From contig NZ_CP024955.1 in the NCBI RefSeq assembly GCF_002804065.1, forward strand, positions 868,001 to 932,000: 64,000 nt of DNA, written 5' to 3'. The notes beneath the pieces were generated by a model. The model made no database searches. It was not told the origin of the DNA and was given only the letters and a program-made list of their open reading frames with translations. The translations under genes and the position numbers were made by a program. Of this stretch, positions 20,045 through 26,703 are shown piece by piece (position 1 is the first letter of the stretch; the number at the start of each line of letters is the position of its first letter). This DNA is from Kyrpidia spormannii. Its GTDB lineage: Bacteria > Bacillota > Bacilli > Kyrpidiales > Kyrpidiaceae.

Positions 20045-20095
20045 TAACATTGTGTGGATTAATGCTTGATTTTTGCTGAATTGGGGGAGAGCGGC

Positions 20096-21826
20096 ATGGA
20101 TAAACCTTTGGATCACAACGAACGCATCCCGGTAGTTAAAGGTAATTTTAATCTCAAAGACTACGAAGAAGCCCGGCGCACATTTCGATGGGAAGACGTA
20201 GAACCCCGGTTCACGTGGCACCGGACGGGAAAGGTGAATGCTGCTTACGAATGCATCGATCGCCACGTCGACGAGGGACGAGGCGACAAAGTGGCGCTTT
20301 TGTACAGTGATGCCCAGCGAAACGAATCCTACACCTTTCGCCAGCTGAGGGATTTGTCCAACCGGTTTGGCAATGCCCTCCGAAAGCTTGGGGTTAAAAA
20401 GGGCGATCGGGTGTTTATTTTCATGTCGCGAAGCCCTGAGCTCTATGTGGCTTTTCTCGGGGCATTGAAGGTGGGGGCGATTGTCGGTCCGCTGTTCGAG
20501 GCCTTTATGGAAGCGGCGGTTCGGGATCGCCTGCAGGACAGTCAGGCAAAAGTGGTGGTTACGAACGAACGTTTAAAAGGTCGGATTCCGATTCAAGATC
20601 TGTCTCACCTCGAGCACGTGGTGGTGCAAGGACTCACGGGGACCCCGGGTCCCAAGGAGCAATCGTTTGAAGCGCTGATGGAGGAGGCTTCCCAGGAACT
20701 GGCCATCGAGTGGGTGGACCGGGAGGACGGGTTAGTTCTTCACTATACGTCCGGTTCCACGGGTAAACCAAAGGGTGTGCTCCACGTCCATAATGCGATG
20801 ATTCAACACTATATCACGGGACTGTGGGTTCTCGATCTGCACCCCGAGGACATCTATTGGTGTACGGCGGACCCTGGGTGGGTGACCGGAACCTCGTATG
20901 GGATTTTCGCCCCGTGGCTCAACGGCGTGACCAACGTGGTGCGAGGGGGTCGGTTCAGTCAAGAAGATTGGTATAAAACTCTTCAAGATCATCGGGTGAC
21001 TGTGTGGTACACGGCCCCCACCGCTTTGCGCATGCTCATGGGAGCGGGGGAGGAGTTGGTCCGGCAGTATGATCTGTCGTCGGTGCGTCACATTCTGTCT
21101 GTGGGTGAGCCGCTGAACCCCGAGGTCGTCAGGTGGGGATTGAAGGTCTATGGCCGCCGGATTCACGACACCTGGTGGATGACCGAAACGGGGGCTCAAT
21201 TGATCTGTAACTATCCGTGCATGGATATAAAGCCGGGATCGATGGGCAAACCGTTTCCGGGAATCGACGCGGCCATTGTGGATGACGAAGGTCGGGAACT
21301 CCCTCCGTACCAGATGGGGAACTTGGCCATTCGCCGGGGATGGCCCTCCATGATGCGGGCGATCTGGAATAACCCGGCGAAGTATCAGGAGTATTTTCGC
21401 TTAGAAGGCTGGTACATCTCGGGGGATTCGGCTTACCGGGATGAAGACGGATATTTTTGGTTCCAGGGGCGGGTCGACGATGTGATCAACACCTCCGGGG
21501 AGCGGGTCGGTCCCTTTGAAGTAGAGAGCAAATTGGTGGAACACCCTGCGGTGGCGGAAGCCGGGGTGATCGGGAAACCCGATCCTGTGCGGGGTGAGAT
21601 CATCAAGGCGTTTATCGCGCTGCGCCAGGGATATGAGCCCTCCGAGGAACTCAAGCAGGAAATCCGGGACTTTGTGAAAAATGGCCTGGCTGCTCACGCG
21701 GCGCCGAGGGAAATCGAGTTCCGGGACAAACTTCCCAAGACCCGGAGCGGAAAGATCATGCGCCGGGTGCTGAAGGCGTGGGAGCTGGGTCTGCCCACCG
21801 GAGACCTCTCGACGATGGAAGACTGA
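20096..21826 (+). CDS. acsA: Acetyl-CoA synthetase AcsA
   Basis: An acyl-adenylate-forming ligase of about 576 residues that makes acetyl-CoA from acetate, ATP and CoA. It shows LHYTSGSTGKPKGVLHVH (ATP loop), TADPGWVTGTSYGIFAPW, DTWWMTETGAQLICNYP and the C-terminal PKTRSGKIMRRVLKAWEL, whose lysine is the site that AcuA acetylates in Bacillus. It is very like Bacillus AcsA in text and ends DLSTMED as that protein does. The ATG at 20096 follows gggggaga. It is divergent from acuABC and has a strong terminator downstream. Confidence 0.97.
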   Translation: MDKPLDHNERIPVVKGNFNLKDYEEARRTFRWEDVEPRFTWHRTGKVNAAYECIDRHVDEGRGDKVALLYSDAQRNESYTFRQLRDLSNRFGNALRKLGVKKGDRVFIFMSRSPELYVAFLGALKVGAIVGPLFEAFMEAAVRDRLQDSQAKVVVTNERLKGRIPIQDLSHLEHVVVQGLTGTPGPKEQSFEALMEEASQELAIEWVDREDGLVLHYTSGSTGKPKGVLHVHNAMIQHYITGLWVLDLHPEDIYWCTADPGWVTGTSYGIFAPWLNGVTNVVRGGRFSQEDWYKTLQDHRVTVWYTAPTALRMLMGAGEELVRQYDLSSVRHILSVGEPLNPEVVRWGLKVYGRRIHDTWWMTETGAQLICNYPCMDIKPGSMGKPFPGIDAAIVDDEGRELPPYQMGNLAIRRGWPSMMRAIWNNPAKYQEYFRLEGWYISGDSAYRDEDGYFWFQGRVDDVINTSGERVGPFEVESKLVEHPAVAEAGVIGKPDPVRGEIIKAFIALRQGYEPSEELKQEIRDFVKNGLAAHAAPREIEFRDKLPKTRSGKIMRRVLKAWELGLPTGDLSTMED

Positions 21827-21850
21827 TTGGGGAATGCCGCCGTTGTAACA

Positions 21851-21897
21851 AGACGCAGAGGGCCGGGATCCATGCCCGGCCTTCTGCGTCTTTTTTC
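21851..21897 (+). terminator. Strong intrinsic terminator of acsA
   Basis: A 17-bp stem (21851-21867 with 21875-21891, one G-T pair), a 7-base loop, then tttttt. Confidence 0.93.
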
Positions 21898-21943
21898 TTT
21901 ATCCAGCTCCACAGGCATTGCTATCGTGAGATCCTTCGATGCA

Positions 21944-22120
21944 TCACGTCAGGTCTGGCATCTCGTTGTCGTCGGGATTCTTGCGGTCGGAAAAAGCCGG
22001 GTTTTCATCCCGGAATCGGGAAACCACGCGTTGCCCTTCCTCCCAAGGGGTGGATTTTCCTAGTGTAAACTCCTGATTATCCGCCATTCCGTAAGGGCCT
22101 TCCGGAAACTCTTCAGGCAT
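21944..22120 (-). CDS. Small conserved cytosolic protein (unknown function)
   Basis: A hydrophilic protein of about 58 residues starting MPEEFPEGPYG, with the central phrase GKSTPWEEGQR and an acidic/Asn-rich end NPDDNEMPDLT. These phrases resemble small Bacillales proteins usually labelled as cytosolic proteins of unknown function. An in-frame extension reaches 22252 but lacks the family text. The ribosome site (gggatgg) is weak, so the start is uncertain. It is divergent from the aminotransferase operon at 22342. Between 22121 and 22341 I see no other element. Confidence 0.55.
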   Translation of the reverse strand: MPEEFPEGPYGMADNQEFTLGKSTPWEEGQRVVSRFRDENPAFSDRKNPDDNEMPDLT

Positions 22121-22341
22121 GATGTCGTGCCGCCATCCCGTTGCGGGCGTAAACCTCTGCCTTTTCTTTCCCGGCCAAAACCTCACCGCCGGCCCCCCTT
22201 TCCGGATGATGGTCCCATCGCTTTCACCTTTCCCCGGGATTCGCCGATTCATACCCGGACGCCGGGCTGTGGACCGATCTCAAGGGCGAGGAGCATGAAG
22301 AATTTGGCATCGGGGAAGCTAAAGGCGTGGAGGTGAAGAGG

Positions 22342-23742
22342 ATGGCGAGCCCCGTGGCTGTAAAGGACCTGTATGATTCGTATATCAATCCCGGCATGGC
22401 GAAGTTGCACCATTTAATGGGGTTGTCCGCCGGGGAGCTCCGTGGGGAGGGAAGTCTCGTGTATGACGAGGACGGGAGGCGTTATATAGACTGCGTGTCT
22501 GGATATGGATCATTGCCCTTCGGACACCGTCCGGGCCCGGTGTTGGAAGCGGTGCGCCGGCAGATGGACCGGATGGCCCTCTCGTCGAAAGTCATGCCCG
22601 GCCGTCCGGTGGGAGAGTTGGCCGAGGCCCTAGCTGGGTGGACTCCCGGGGATTTGCAGTACAGCTTTTTTTGTAACAGTGGTGCGGAGGCGGTGGAAGG
22701 GGCTCTAAAATTGGCCCGGGCAGTGACGGGGCGTCCGGGGTTTGTCGCGGCGGAAGGGGGGTTTCATGGGAAAACCTTTGGGGCGCTTTCGGTGTCCGGC
22801 CGGCAGCGGTATCGAGCCCCCTTTCATCCTTTGCTTCCCGGTGTGACGTTGGTGCCGTTCGGGGATGTGGAGGCGCTAAAAAGGGCGGTGTCCCAGGAGA
22901 CGGCCGCGGTGATCCTTGAGCCGATTCAAGGGGAGGGCGGGGTCCATCCGGCGCCCCGGGGCTACCTGACGGCCGCCAGGGAGATCTGCAACCGCGCCGG
23001 GGCACTGTTGATCCTGGACGAGGTGCAGACGGGTCTCGGGAGAACGGGGATGCCGTTTGCGGCGGAACGGGATGGCGTGGTCCCCGATGTGATGTGTCTG
23101 GCCAAGGCCCTCGGGGGTGGGGTGATGCCCATTGGCTGTTTCATCGCCAGGCCGGAGGCGGCCCGTGCTTTCTGGGAAGATCCTTTGATTCATACTTCCA
23201 CCTTTGGGGGGAATCCCCTGGCAGCTGCGGCGGGACTTGCGACCCTGGATTGGCTGCAACGGGAGGATCTGCCCGGGGCGGCGGCAGAAACGGGACGATG
23301 GCTCAAAGGCGAGTTTGAGGAGATGGCCAAACGGTATCCGGGCTGGATCCGCGAGGTGCGCGGAGAAGGACTTTTGCTCGGCGTTGAATTTGTCGATGAG
23401 GCCCGGGGAGGACTCGTCATGAGCGGGTTGGTGGAGAAGGGTGTTCTCACGGCGTTTACCTTGAATGAGTACCGGGTGGTTCGGGTGGAGCCATCTTTGA
23501 CGATTGATCGCGGCTTGTTGATCCAGGTGCTGGAAGCGTGGGATGCGGTGCTCGGCTATTGGTACGGGCAGCTAGACCCAGGGGAACTTGAAGCGACGGG
23601 GTGGGAACCCGATCGGCAGGTCCTTGGCCCGGACTCGGAAAGTGGAGGCGAATCAAGAGAGACGGCTCGAAACGCGGGGAAGGAGGGGGATGGAAATGCC
23701 GGTGGTTCAGGTGAGGGAGTCGTTCGCAGGGCCTTGGCATGA
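22342..23742 (+). CDS. Class III aminotransferase (PatA/acetylornithine type)
   Basis: A PLP aminotransferase of about 466 residues. It shows SFFCNSGAEAVEGALKLAR, the LLILDEVQTGLGRTG box, the PLP lysine in CLAKALGGGVMPIG, and STFGGNPLA. It is closest in style to putrescine or long-chain amine aminotransferases that act on a primary amine/aldehyde pair. The last 50 residues (Gly/Glu/Ser-rich) lie beyond the usual end and overlap the next gene by 47 bases. The start at 22342 has ggaggtg before it. The AAR-like reductase two genes on suggests an aldehyde substrate. Confidence 0.9.
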   Translation: MASPVAVKDLYDSYINPGMAKLHHLMGLSAGELRGEGSLVYDEDGRRYIDCVSGYGSLPFGHRPGPVLEAVRRQMDRMALSSKVMPGRPVGELAEALAGWTPGDLQYSFFCNSGAEAVEGALKLARAVTGRPGFVAAEGGFHGKTFGALSVSGRQRYRAPFHPLLPGVTLVPFGDVEALKRAVSQETAAVILEPIQGEGGVHPAPRGYLTAAREICNRAGALLILDEVQTGLGRTGMPFAAERDGVVPDVMCLAKALGGGVMPIGCFIARPEAARAFWEDPLIHTSTFGGNPLAAAAGLATLDWLQREDLPGAAAETGRWLKGEFEEMAKRYPGWIREVRGEGLLLGVEFVDEARGGLVMSGLVEKGVLTAFTLNEYRVVRVEPSLTIDRGLLIQVLEAWDAVLGYWYGQLDPGELEATGWEPDRQVLGPDSESGGESRETARNAGKEGDGNAGGSGEGVVRRALA

Positions 23743-24178
23743 GGTTTTTGACTGGGTGGCGAATTTTGAGCGATACCCCGAATTTGTCCCGGATTTGACC
23801 AAAGTGGTGGTCTTGGAACGGGGTGAAGATTGGACCATCAGTCGATGGGAGGCGAAGATTGGAGGGACTCCCCTCGGGTGGACGGAGAGGGATGTGTGGG
23901 TGAGGGAGAAAGAGGGCGGGCGCATCGTTTTTGAACAATTGGAAGGGGATTTGAAACGCTTTTCCGGCCACTGGAAAGTGGCTTGTGAGGGCTTAGGATC
24001 GACGGCCGAGTTTCGATGTGAATTCGAGATCGGCCTTCCCGGACTTGCGATTATGCTTCACCCCGTAGCCGGACTGAAACTCCGGCAAAGCATGGCAGGG
24101 CTGCTTCGGAATCTGAAAATCCGTGTGGAGGCCGCAGAAGATGGAACATCAATTCGCTTTCTTGATTCACCCCTTTGA
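23696..24178 (+). CDS. SRPBCC/START-like protein (COQ10/aromatase type)
   Basis: A soluble helix-grip protein of about 160 residues. It begins MPVVQVRESFAGPWHEVFDW with the typical ANFERYPEFVPDLTKV segment of COQ10/polyketide-cyclase proteins that hold a lipid or aromatic ligand in a cavity. It ends with a long amphipathic helix LRQSMAGLLRNLKIRVEAA. The ATG at 23696 is 9 bases after aaggagg. It overlaps both neighbours, indicating tight coupling. The ligand is unknown; a long-chain acyl or aldehyde intermediate is my inference. Confidence 0.82.
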   Translation: MPVVQVRESFAGPWHEVFDWVANFERYPEFVPDLTKVVVLERGEDWTISRWEAKIGGTPLGWTERDVWVREKEGGRIVFEQLEGDLKRFSGHWKVACEGLGSTAEFRCEFEIGLPGLAIMLHPVAGLKLRQSMAGLLRNLKIRVEAAEDGTSIRFLDSPL

Positions 24179-25289
24179 TCGCCGGGACATCACGCGCAAA
24201 CTTCCTGCCCTGGCCGCTTTGCCCGACCCGACCCTGGACCGGTTACTGCGTCACCTGCCGCCATTACTCGTCGATCGCATCGATGGGGTGACGGGGGCGC
24301 AAGGAGTGAAGACGTCGGGGTGGCTTGTGGGCACACCGTTGACCTCCCAGCAACTTTTGGAGCTGCCTTGGCCCGTGGTCTACCGAAAACTCCTTGCGGC
24401 CGGGAAAAAGGCGGTCCGACTGGGCGCCAAAGTGTTGGGGTTGGGGGCGTTCACCGCCGTCGCCGGGGACGCCGGGGTCAGTTTAGCCCGCAGACTGCCC
24501 ATCGCGGTGACGACCGGGAATTCCTACACCGTGGCCATAGCGTTGAAAGCGGCGGACGTGGGGGCGCGGTGGATGGGCTGGGATCCGGACAGGGCGGGGT
24601 GGGTGGTGATGGGTGCCACGGGGGGCGTGGGGAGGGTGTCGGTGGAGATCCTTGCCTCCCGGGGTCGGAAGGTGTTCGCCCATGTGCGGGACGATCGCAA
24701 GGCGGGCGAGTTTCTGGAGTATTTTCGCCAACGGGGTTTGGAGGGCAGAATTGAGATGGATCATGATGTGCGCCGCATCCTATCCCAGGCGCCGCTGGTG
24801 ATCACCTGTTCCAGCGCGTTGGAAGCGGTGGTTCAGCCCCAGGATCTGCTTCCGGGTGCGGTGGTTTGCGACGTGGCCCGTCCCAGGGACGTTTCCCGTC
24901 AAGTGGCCGATCATCGCCCGGATGTACTCGTGATCGACGGAGGTTTGGTCAAAGTGCCGGGCGGCTACCCGGGGACTTTGGACCTGGGTTTGCCGGCGGA
25001 TACAGTGTACGCATGCATGGCGGAAACCATGGTCTTGGCCATGGAGGGTCGGCTGGAACACTTTTCTTTGGGCAGAAACCTCACCGCCGACCGGGTTCGG
25101 GAGATTGCTGAACTTGCCAAAAAGCACGGGTTTGAGCTCGCCGCTTTTCGAAGTTTTGAGCGTGCCCTGACCCGGGAGGCGGTGGAGAGAATCCGGCGGG
25201 AGGCGGACTTCCGTCGGGGCGAGGCTGCCCCGGGACCGGGCGCGGATGGGCGTTTGACCGGGGATCGGCCTGATCCTGTGGGGGTCTAG
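24141..25289 (+). CDS. Acyl-ACP reductase (AAR)-like NAD(P) oxidoreductase
   Basis: A protein of about 382 residues of a type often labelled as shikimate dehydrogenase-like. It aligns by eye along its length with cyanobacterial long-chain acyl-ACP reductase, which makes fatty aldehydes. Points of match are TTGNSYTVAIAL, the Rossmann GATGGVG starting at G158, VLVIDGGLVKVPG, and TVYACMAETMVLAMEG. That last segment puts a cysteine at 292, next to the place of the catalytic Cys294 of the Synechococcus enzyme; FSLGRNLT and AKKHGFEL follow. A 45-residue Pro/Gly-rich tail is extra. The start at 24141 (ggagg upstream) overlaps the SRPBCC gene. Function as an acyl reductase is inferred, not shown. Confidence 0.75.
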   Translation: MEHQFAFLIHPFDRRDITRKLPALAALPDPTLDRLLRHLPPLLVDRIDGVTGAQGVKTSGWLVGTPLTSQQLLELPWPVVYRKLLAAGKKAVRLGAKVLGLGAFTAVAGDAGVSLARRLPIAVTTGNSYTVAIALKAADVGARWMGWDPDRAGWVVMGATGGVGRVSVEILASRGRKVFAHVRDDRKAGEFLEYFRQRGLEGRIEMDHDVRRILSQAPLVITCSSALEAVVQPQDLLPGAVVCDVARPRDVSRQVADHRPDVLVIDGGLVKVPGGYPGTLDLGLPADTVYACMAETMVLAMEGRLEHFSLGRNLTADRVREIAELAKKHGFELAAFRSFERALTREAVERIRREADFRRGEAAPGPGADGRLTGDRPDPVGV

Positions 25290-25357
25290 GGCATAGAGCG
25301 GGATTTGGAGGTTCAGGCATTCGCACGCCGGGGGGAACCCAGGGCGGGGCCCGGGCG

Positions 25358-26191
25358 TTAATCAGCCTCTTCGAGGGTGGACAGCCGGGCCAGAGTTTCG
25401 GCGGAGCGGGCGATCTGCCCAAGGGAGGCGGCCAGCTCCTGCACCGCCGCCGCCTGCTCTTGGGTGTGGCGGGTGGACATCTGGATATCCGCGATCATCC
25501 GCTCCACGGCCTGTTGGATGTCAGAAAGCTTCCCTTCGATATCTTTGGAGGCGGACTGACTGCGCTGGGCGAGGCGCCGGATCTCATCGGCGACCACGGC
25601 GAATCCCCGGCCCTGTTCTCCCGCCCGGGCCGCCTCGATGGCGGCATTGAGACCAAGGAGATTGGACTGGGCGGCGACTTCGTGGATGAATCCAAGAACG
25701 GAGGAGGTGACTTGGATTCGTTCCTGGGCGACCATGGCGTTGTTGCTGATATCTGTGTTGGCTGCGGCCACCTCGCTGGCGGTCCGGGATAGGGAATCGG
25801 CGTTCGCCGACAGTTGCTCGACTAACGCCGACAGCTCCTGGGCGTGTCCCTGAAGAATATCCTGCCGCTCCGTCAATACGATGACGGTGATAATCCCCAC
25901 CATTTCTCCAGATTCCTCGAGGATCGGCTCGGCCACGGCGTAGTAGGAGTAGCCGAATTTTTCCTTAGAACGCCGATCGACGACCCGTTGTCGAGCCTGC
26001 AAAGCTTGGTAAGTGACGGTGTTGCGATGGGCGCCGAGGGCTTCGCCGGGCTGGAGCGGCATCGGAACCCTCGGGTGCTCGTAGACAGCGGTTATCCGTT
26101 CCGTGTCGGTGACCACCACGGTGCAAGGTTCAAGAAAAAGACGCTGAATCAGCGGTGCTGACCGTAAAACAGCATCAAGCGCAGAAGACAT
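25358..26191 (-). CDS. Soluble methyl-accepting chemotaxis-type protein
   Basis: A cytosolic chemoreceptor of about 277 residues without membrane segments. The N-terminal 115 residues form a PAS/GAF-like sensor region. The C-terminal signalling hairpin carries the conserved tip [23 protein letters not shown] flanked by coiled-coil heptads. The layout is like Bacillus YfmS or HemAT-type soluble receptors, though I see no haem-binding signature. The start at 26191 follows ggaggt by 8 bases. No che genes are near. The stimulus is unknown. Confidence 0.88.
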
Positions 26192-26346
26192 GGGCACTTA
26201 CCTCCGATGAAAGCTTCGTCGGGCGGATCCGATCCATTCCGCCCGTCTAAGCTTCATCACCAGGTCGAGTTGTTCCTTGCAAAAAAATGTGTGAATAGAT
26301 GATGAGAATTTGGTGAACGACCATCGGCCCCGATAATCTGCTCTTT

Positions 26347-26703
26347 TCACGGGGCTTTGTGCAGGAGCAGATGCACGGTGCGACCTTCAGAACGGCGCTG
26401 TGTGAGCGAAGGAATCACCGGATGGGGAAGGTGGATCCGGTGGCTCCAACTCTGGGTCCGACGATGAAAGAGAGGGGGCTGATCCCGTTCCACCTGGTTA
26501 TATGTTCGCGCCTGAAGATACACCATCTCCGGTTCCACCCGGATTTCGACTGCATCCGGGTCACACCAGGTGGGAGTTTGCACAATCAGTTCGATGGTTT
26601 TTCCACGATCGGACATCTCGTAGCCCGGCATTTCCGGAAAAGACGAGCTTAGAATTGTCCATGGGAACTGGGAGCCCATCCAGCGCATGGGCGGCCACAT
26701 GAT
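26347..26703 (-). CDS. Hsp20/alpha-crystallin-like protein (diverged)
   Basis: A protein of about 118 residues. From residue 25 the text YEMSDRGKTIELIVQTPTW, then VEIRVEPEMVYLQA and RIHLPHPV, follows the beta-sandwich pattern of small heat-shock or spore-coat Hsp20-like proteins. The usual GVL motif is not clear. The ATG at 26703 has ggaggaggt upstream; a longer frame to 26877 lacks support. It is divergent from the SDR gene. A chaperone-like role is only a guess from fold pattern. Confidence 0.62.
   Translation of the reverse strand: MMWPPMRWMGSQFPWTILSSSFPEMPGYEMSDRGKTIELIVQTPTWCDPDAVEIRVEPEMVYLQARTYNQVERDQPPLFHRRTQSWSHRIHLPHPVIPSLTQRRSEGRTVHLLLHKAP

Follow-up and report, generated by a model that had tools for sequence, protein, structure and literature searches.

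An unfused acyl-ACP reductase and aminotransferase operon in Kyrpidia spormannii: a candidate amine-forming module among spore-forming Bacillota

In Kyrpidia spormannii, three overlapping genes encode a class III aminotransferase (AT), an SRPBCC protein and a relative of the acyl-ACP reductases (AAR), and we consider with moderate confidence that this operon constitutes an unfused AAR-plus-transaminase module, which would convert an acyl thioester to an aldehyde and then to an amine with the participation of the SRPBCC protein and of a conserved protein of about 300 amino acids, most likely upon expression in the forespore. More broadly, and quite tentatively, many spore-forming Bacillota could share an undescribed pathway from acyl thioester to amine, composed of AAR, of a YgjG-like AT accompanied by SRPBCC or else of a fused AT, of the partner of about 300 amino acids and of a HTH regulator, operating in the forespore in the Kyrpidia/Tumebacillus line and yielding a new spore amine or aminolipid. 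What is new here is the unfused version, probably assembled apart from the fusions, the AT-SRPBCC pair, the partner protein, for which the label 'DUF304' was coined in this analysis, and the link with spore-formers. The setting of the trio thereby proves wider than the initial annotation of the locus saw.

Organisation of the locus

The window designates the whole stretch of 64,000 nucleotides that was analysed. The three overlapping ORFs claimed at 22342-25289 were all found at these places (Table 1), the AT and SRPBCC genes overlapping by 53 nt and the SRPBCC and AAR genes by 38 nt, and the motifs previously read in the third protein, namely TTGN (residues 124-127), GATGGVG and ACMAE with Cys292, are all present. 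The upstream neighbour of the operon is the acetate-CoA ligase gene acsA (20066-21826), the hairpin of which is the upstream boundary of the operon, and the gene downstream of AAR lies on the opposite strand. Regarding the translational coupling of the trio put forward by the initial annotation, the overlaps are real in Kyrpidia but the AT/SRPBCC overlap falls inside a poorly conserved C-terminal tail of the AT (about 50 amino acids; window 23580-23742), which is found in Kyrpidiaceae only and is absent from other Bacilli. As the AT ends earlier in the trios of these other Bacilli, where most genes are set apart by short gaps, coupling by overlap is not general.

Table 1. Features of the operon and of the 'DUF304' genes (window coordinates unless a locus is given)
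Feature	Position	Strand	Support or remark
Terminator-like hairpin, strong	21850..21892	+	18-bp stem and T run, 3' of acsA
Putative forespore (sigma-G/sigma-F-like) promoter	22293..22321	+	Predicted; about 20-50 nt upstream of the AT gene
AT, class III (PLP) aminotransferase, 466 aa	22342..23742	+	PF00202, E 8.9e-102
AT active-site Lys255, in LAKALGGG	codon 23104-23106	+	K255 invariant in 12 trio genomes
SRPBCC / Polyketide_cyc hydrophobic-cavity protein, 162 aa	23690..24178	+	PF03364, E 3e-20
Predicted AAR-like NADPH-dependent thioester reductase, 382 aa	24141..25289	+	PigE and SeAAR matches; residue mapping; model
AAR Rossmann GATGGVG	24612-24632	+	AAR residues 158-164
AAR catalytic Cys292, in ACMAE	codon 25014-25016	+	Residue mapping to SeAAR
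'DUF304', Kyrpidia	G000:C1:101269-102183 (L251:8261-9208)		About 101 kb; outside the window
'DUF304', clostridial example	L042:9076-9984		

Identity of the three proteins

The third protein is genuinely related to AAR and belongs to the AAR superfamily. In profile searches, no Pfam family exceeded its cut-off, Shikimate_DH scoring 22.8 bits for a gathering threshold of 24.3 bits; with NCBIfam models, the reductase half of PigE gave 196 bits, the AAR model TIGR04058 78.3 bits and HemA 31 bits, which places AAR and PigE ahead of both shikimate dehydrogenase and HemA. TIGR04058 is an equivalog of the cyanobacterial long-chain AAR, the cut-off of which (449.7 bits) is not reached by the Kyrpidia protein. 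Among solved structures, the sequence search of the PDB retrieved PigE (4ppm, E 1.7e-37) and SeAAR (6jzq, E 3e-17) as best matches, and the AlphaFold model (pLDDT 90.3) adopts the three-domain AAR fold, with SeAAR 6jzq as top PDB match in Foldseek (TM 0.74-0.85).

When the SeAAR residues reported in the structure paper (PMC7089970) are mapped by alignment, C294 falls on C292 in Kyrpidia, and this cysteine is invariant in alignments of 18 and of 44 relatives. The dinucleotide loop GxxGxxG is kept (G158/G161/G164) and the NADPH-phosphate contacts R189, R193 and R314 correspond to R183, K187, which is a conservative change, and R312, while the replacement of Y247 by R247 counts against the reading favoured here. 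The AAR-like character and the position of Cys292 announced by the initial annotation are thus borne out by the residue alignment and by the profile searches and structure prediction it had proposed. Neither a best match to shikimate or glutamyl-tRNA reductases, nor a variable cysteine, nor a lost gene order, which it had named as adverse outcomes, was observed. It had also seen no aldehyde-deformylating oxygenase (ADO), and this holds for the complete genome, a single contig of 3,352,175 bp in which PF11266 found no match under a search that was positive in Synechococcus elongatus; the missing ADO excludes an AAR-ADO alkane pathway.

The closest solved chain to the AT is the putrescine aminotransferase of E. 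coli (4uox, E 4e-109), the AT half of PigE giving E 3e-89, and its 434 bits against the putrescine aminotransferase equivalog NF008570 lie below the cut-off of 612 bits. The SRPBCC protein matches TTHA0849 (2d4r, E 6.5e-10). Both residues expected of the pair of enzymes, i.e. the class III AT lysine K255 and the AAR cysteine C292, are invariant.

Conservation of the trio and of the AT-SRPBCC pair

Twelve genomes from four Bacilli families, with protein identities falling to about 36-57%, preserve the order AT-SRPBCC-AAR, in every case as separate genes, which rules out chance as well as a peculiarity of Kyrpidia. Outside fusions, a strong AAR match was found in 13 of 400 Bacilli genomes, 12 of which have the trio, Tumebacillus avium (L071; same coordinates as G565) being among the carriers. 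One Bacilli locus (L144, from G455) holds a diverged AAR (41% identity) with neither AT nor SRPBCC nearby; its relatives have the trio.

Of the 399 genomes sampled across the phylum, 237 (59%; E <= 1e-10, fusions included) contain AAR relatives and 38 an SRPBCC orthologue. The supposition that clostridial AAR always stands beside an AT was rejected, the trio being found in only one of 80 named loci (L071, Tumebacillus). SRPBCC orthologues come after the AT in both Bacilli and Clostridia, and in all 18 clostridial loci examined the AT is just upstream of SRPBCC, away from AAR. Since AAR accompanies SRPBCC in 36 of these 38 genomes (Fisher p 4e-7, without correction for relatedness) and the two others are assemblies 82% and 63% complete, AT-SRPBCC seems to need AAR and not the reverse. 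Besides, many AAR genomes have neither SRPBCC nor a recognised fusion, which is a point against the favoured reading, and the amine step cannot therefore be assumed family-wide.

Two further observations concern individual records. In one clostridial genome, AT and SRPBCC are separated by an inserted HNH-type ORF (L188:6413-7717), which resembles an IscB-type protein carried by a transposon. AAR-like matches were also obtained in two phage records, DQ115832.1 (1.5 kb, cyanophage AS-1) and MT835709.1 (21 kb, faecal), which are possibly host DNA.

Fusions and descent

AT-AAR fusions in the TamH order (866-976 amino acids) were confirmed in more than 10 Bacillota genomes (L145-L147, L227-L237) and are widespread in this phylum, beyond the three that have been published. 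By match pattern, about 51 genomes look fusion-bearing, only a minority of which were checked ORF by ORF, and their overlap with SRPBCC genomes is zero, as if fused AT-AAR and AT-SRPBCC were alternatives. In the trees, where deep nodes are weak, the trio AARs form a clade (support 0.97) that is nested among the lone AARs and lies outside that of the fusions; the trio ATs are placed near YgjG, together with the ATs of the clostridial pairs and apart from the fused ATs. Because neither enzyme of the trio branches with its fused counterpart, the two activities were probably brought together independently in the unfused trio; a common origin by gene fission from PigE/TamH-type fusions is not supported by these trees, given with the same weak deep nodes. 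As the closest characterised AT is YgjG and the trio ATs are apart from the fused ones, descent does not by itself point to a fatty aldehyde as the substrate.

The partner protein 'DUF304'

'DUF304' matches no Pfam or NCBIfam family and is present in 290 of the 399 phylum genomes, i.e. in 232 of the 237 with AAR and in 58 without it. The predicted structure (pLDDT 91) has two domains and a Rossmann-like fold, loosely like AAR and amino-acid dehydrogenases; sequence homology with AAR was not supported (hhalign E 0.37), the likeness being one of loose fold only (TM 0.5, rmsd 8). In the literature searched for its function, only one remark was found, on a Thermus 'quinate 5-dehydrogenase' family that is perhaps not the same.

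The locus of the lone clostridial AAR is fixed, with the order dusB, HTH protein (about 177 amino acids), 'DUF304', AAR, greA and lysS. The small HTH protein heads the HTH-'DUF304'-AAR operon at L042:8523-9071 and in more than 40 clostridial loci, and probably regulates it; upstream of the clostridial HTH genes, sigma-A rather than sigma-G scores were obtained. In Kyrpidia, as in the Bacilli relatives L252-L254, this locus reads dusB-'DUF304'-greA-lysS and AAR is missing from it, so that AAR appears to have moved from the dusB-greA locus to AT-SRPBCC. In G352 and G314 (L258, L259), HTH and 'DUF304' are followed by an AT-AAR fusion, in the place held by the lone AAR in Clostridia, and these loci connect AT, AAR and 'DUF304' in the Rosetta-stone manner; the latter probably belongs to the same pathway as the trio.

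Promoter and link with sporulation

The putative promoter of the operon lies in an island conserved at the expected place in an alignment of four Kyrpidiaceae, the -10 element being a perfect CATNHTA in two of them and a poor fit in this genome. Compared with shuffles, the region upstream of the AT scores z 4.2 for sigma-G, 3.0 for sigma-F and 0.3 for sigma-A, and the sigma-E and sigma-K consensus scores are not above shuffles. No sigma-70-type promoter was detected in 21700-26700 and a sigma-A promoter before the operon was accordingly rejected. As the sigma-G score, together with that of sigma-A, is also increased by vegetative promoters such as that of greA, used as a control, the pattern before the AT is suggestive only.

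SpoIVA was present in all 24 AAR genomes sampled, in 19 of 20 genomes with 'DUF304' only and in 18 of 36 with neither; AAR thus tracks spore-formers. Spore-forming is ancestral in Bacillota and this correlation is therefore confounded by descent, while AAR carriers outside the phylum, in Armatimonadota and Anaerolineales MAGs, argue against a strictly spore-bound role. Besides, the trio of Tumebacillus and of some of its relatives is immediately preceded by a GerA-family germination gene (PF03323, E 3e-156), 14 nt before the AT in L071 and L138, and in one Clostridia family the AT-SRPBCC pair comes after spoIVA. The related K. tusciae T2 is an endospore former (PMC3236038). Altogether, the trio genes are possibly expressed in the forespore.

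Proposed pathway and alternative explanations

In the pathway we favour, AAR would take an acyl chain from acyl-ACP or acyl-CoA onto Cys292 and reduce it with NADPH to an aldehyde. From this aldehyde the class III AT would form a primary amine, glutamate being the probable donor. The role of the SRPBCC protein would be to bind or shield the greasy intermediate or product, and 'DUF304', encoded elsewhere in the genome, would probably join in. A long acyl chain, the carriage of a lipid and an aminolipid product may all be envisaged and, with forespore expression as the most likely timing, the amine would form part of the spore or act as a signal. Reduction followed by transamination, as proposed by the initial annotation, stands as the most likely chemistry, having been shown for the relatives PigE and TamH (PMC8341465, PMC9594044).

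Several other explanations have to be weighed against this one. The weak Shikimate_DH and HemA profile matches might suggest that the third protein is a relative of shikimate dehydrogenase or glutamyl-tRNA reductase with an unrelated function; these scores are below curated cut-offs, AAR and PigE match much more closely in both sequence and fold, Cys292 is invariant, and this identity can practically be discarded. Class III ATs being reversible and an acetate-CoA ligase gene adjoining the operon, the AT could also deaminate an amine to an aldehyde, from which the AAR-like enzyme would form an acyl thioester; such a catabolic direction is very improbable, since reduction is the direction taken by the known AAR and PigE/TamH enzymes, the NADPH-binding residues are conserved, and acsA has its own terminator and is not found beside the clostridial AT-SRPBCC pairs. 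That about 200 sampled genomes have AAR without an SRPBCC gene leaves some room, albeit small, for another use of the aldehyde, towards an alcohol, a hydrocarbon or a wax, with the AT merely co-transcribed, but AT-SRPBCC almost never occurs without AAR, AT-AAR fusions stand at the same HTH-'DUF304' locus and ADO is lacking, all of which make it quite improbable.

The same chemistry could otherwise serve a short or branched small-molecule route, where the AT, working as putrescine aminotransferase does on short omega-amines or aldehydes, would deliver a small amine or a polyamine-like compound and not a lipid. The AT is indeed closest to YgjG, its sister in the tree, and PMC10829540 cites for YgjG a small hydrophobic pocket suited to diamines; we nevertheless hold this route for unlikely, because the linked SRPBCC protein has a hydrophobic cavity, acyl thioesters of medium and long chain are the substrates of the known AAR relatives, and the ATs of PigE and TamH, which are also YgjG-like, accept fatty aldehydes.

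If the favoured pathway is right, a chemistry known from antibiotic clusters would extend to what resembles core metabolism in many spore-formers, both anaerobic and thermophilic. With AAR in 59% of the sampled phylum genomes and nearly always with 'DUF304', a testable pathway would lie behind a weak dehydrogenase-like annotation. Should the spore link be real, the amine could affect spore membranes or germination. The trio would also be a source of separate, probably thermostable enzymes turning fatty acids into amines.

Comparison with known systems

The initial annotation knew of no role described for AAR in Bacillota and took the type of pathway to be undescribed; neither point can be maintained, since both the chemistry and a Bacillota AAR partner have already been described. 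PigE reduces a thioester and then transaminates the aldehyde (PMC8341465), TamH together with TamA converts fatty acids to amines (PMC9594044), and KecF was proposed to carry out both steps (PMC6498172). In 2024, transaminase-AAR fusions of the Bacillota Thermaerobacter and Thermincola were expressed and found active as transaminases, and PpKTFusion belongs to the same known or proposed amine-making systems (PMC10829540). On the trio and the AT-SRPBCC pair, no paper was found in the literature searched.

Compared with SeAAR (6JZQ), which works with ADO, the Kyrpidia AAR shares the fold, the catalytic cysteine, the dinucleotide loop and the NADPH-phosphate contacts; however, ADO is absent from Kyrpidia, the ADO-contact residue R73 is replaced by Pro, R79 is variable, Y247 is an Arg and the identity is about 24%. 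E. coli YgjG (PatA) is the closest characterised AT by sequence but is not linked to a reductase. PigE (prodigiosin, 4ppm) combines both activities and has the cysteine in a CMAET motif, whereas it is an AAR-AT fusion from a pigment cluster with PigD, ACP and PKS and no SRPBCC, and the Kyrpidia AT groups with YgjG and not with PigE. In TamH, KecF, PpKTFusion and the Thermaerobacter and Thermincola fusions, a class III AT and an AAR likewise act in sequence, but in a single polypeptide and mostly in PKS/NRPS-type clusters, while the trio consists of separate genes and its AAR falls in the group of the lone clostridial AARs.
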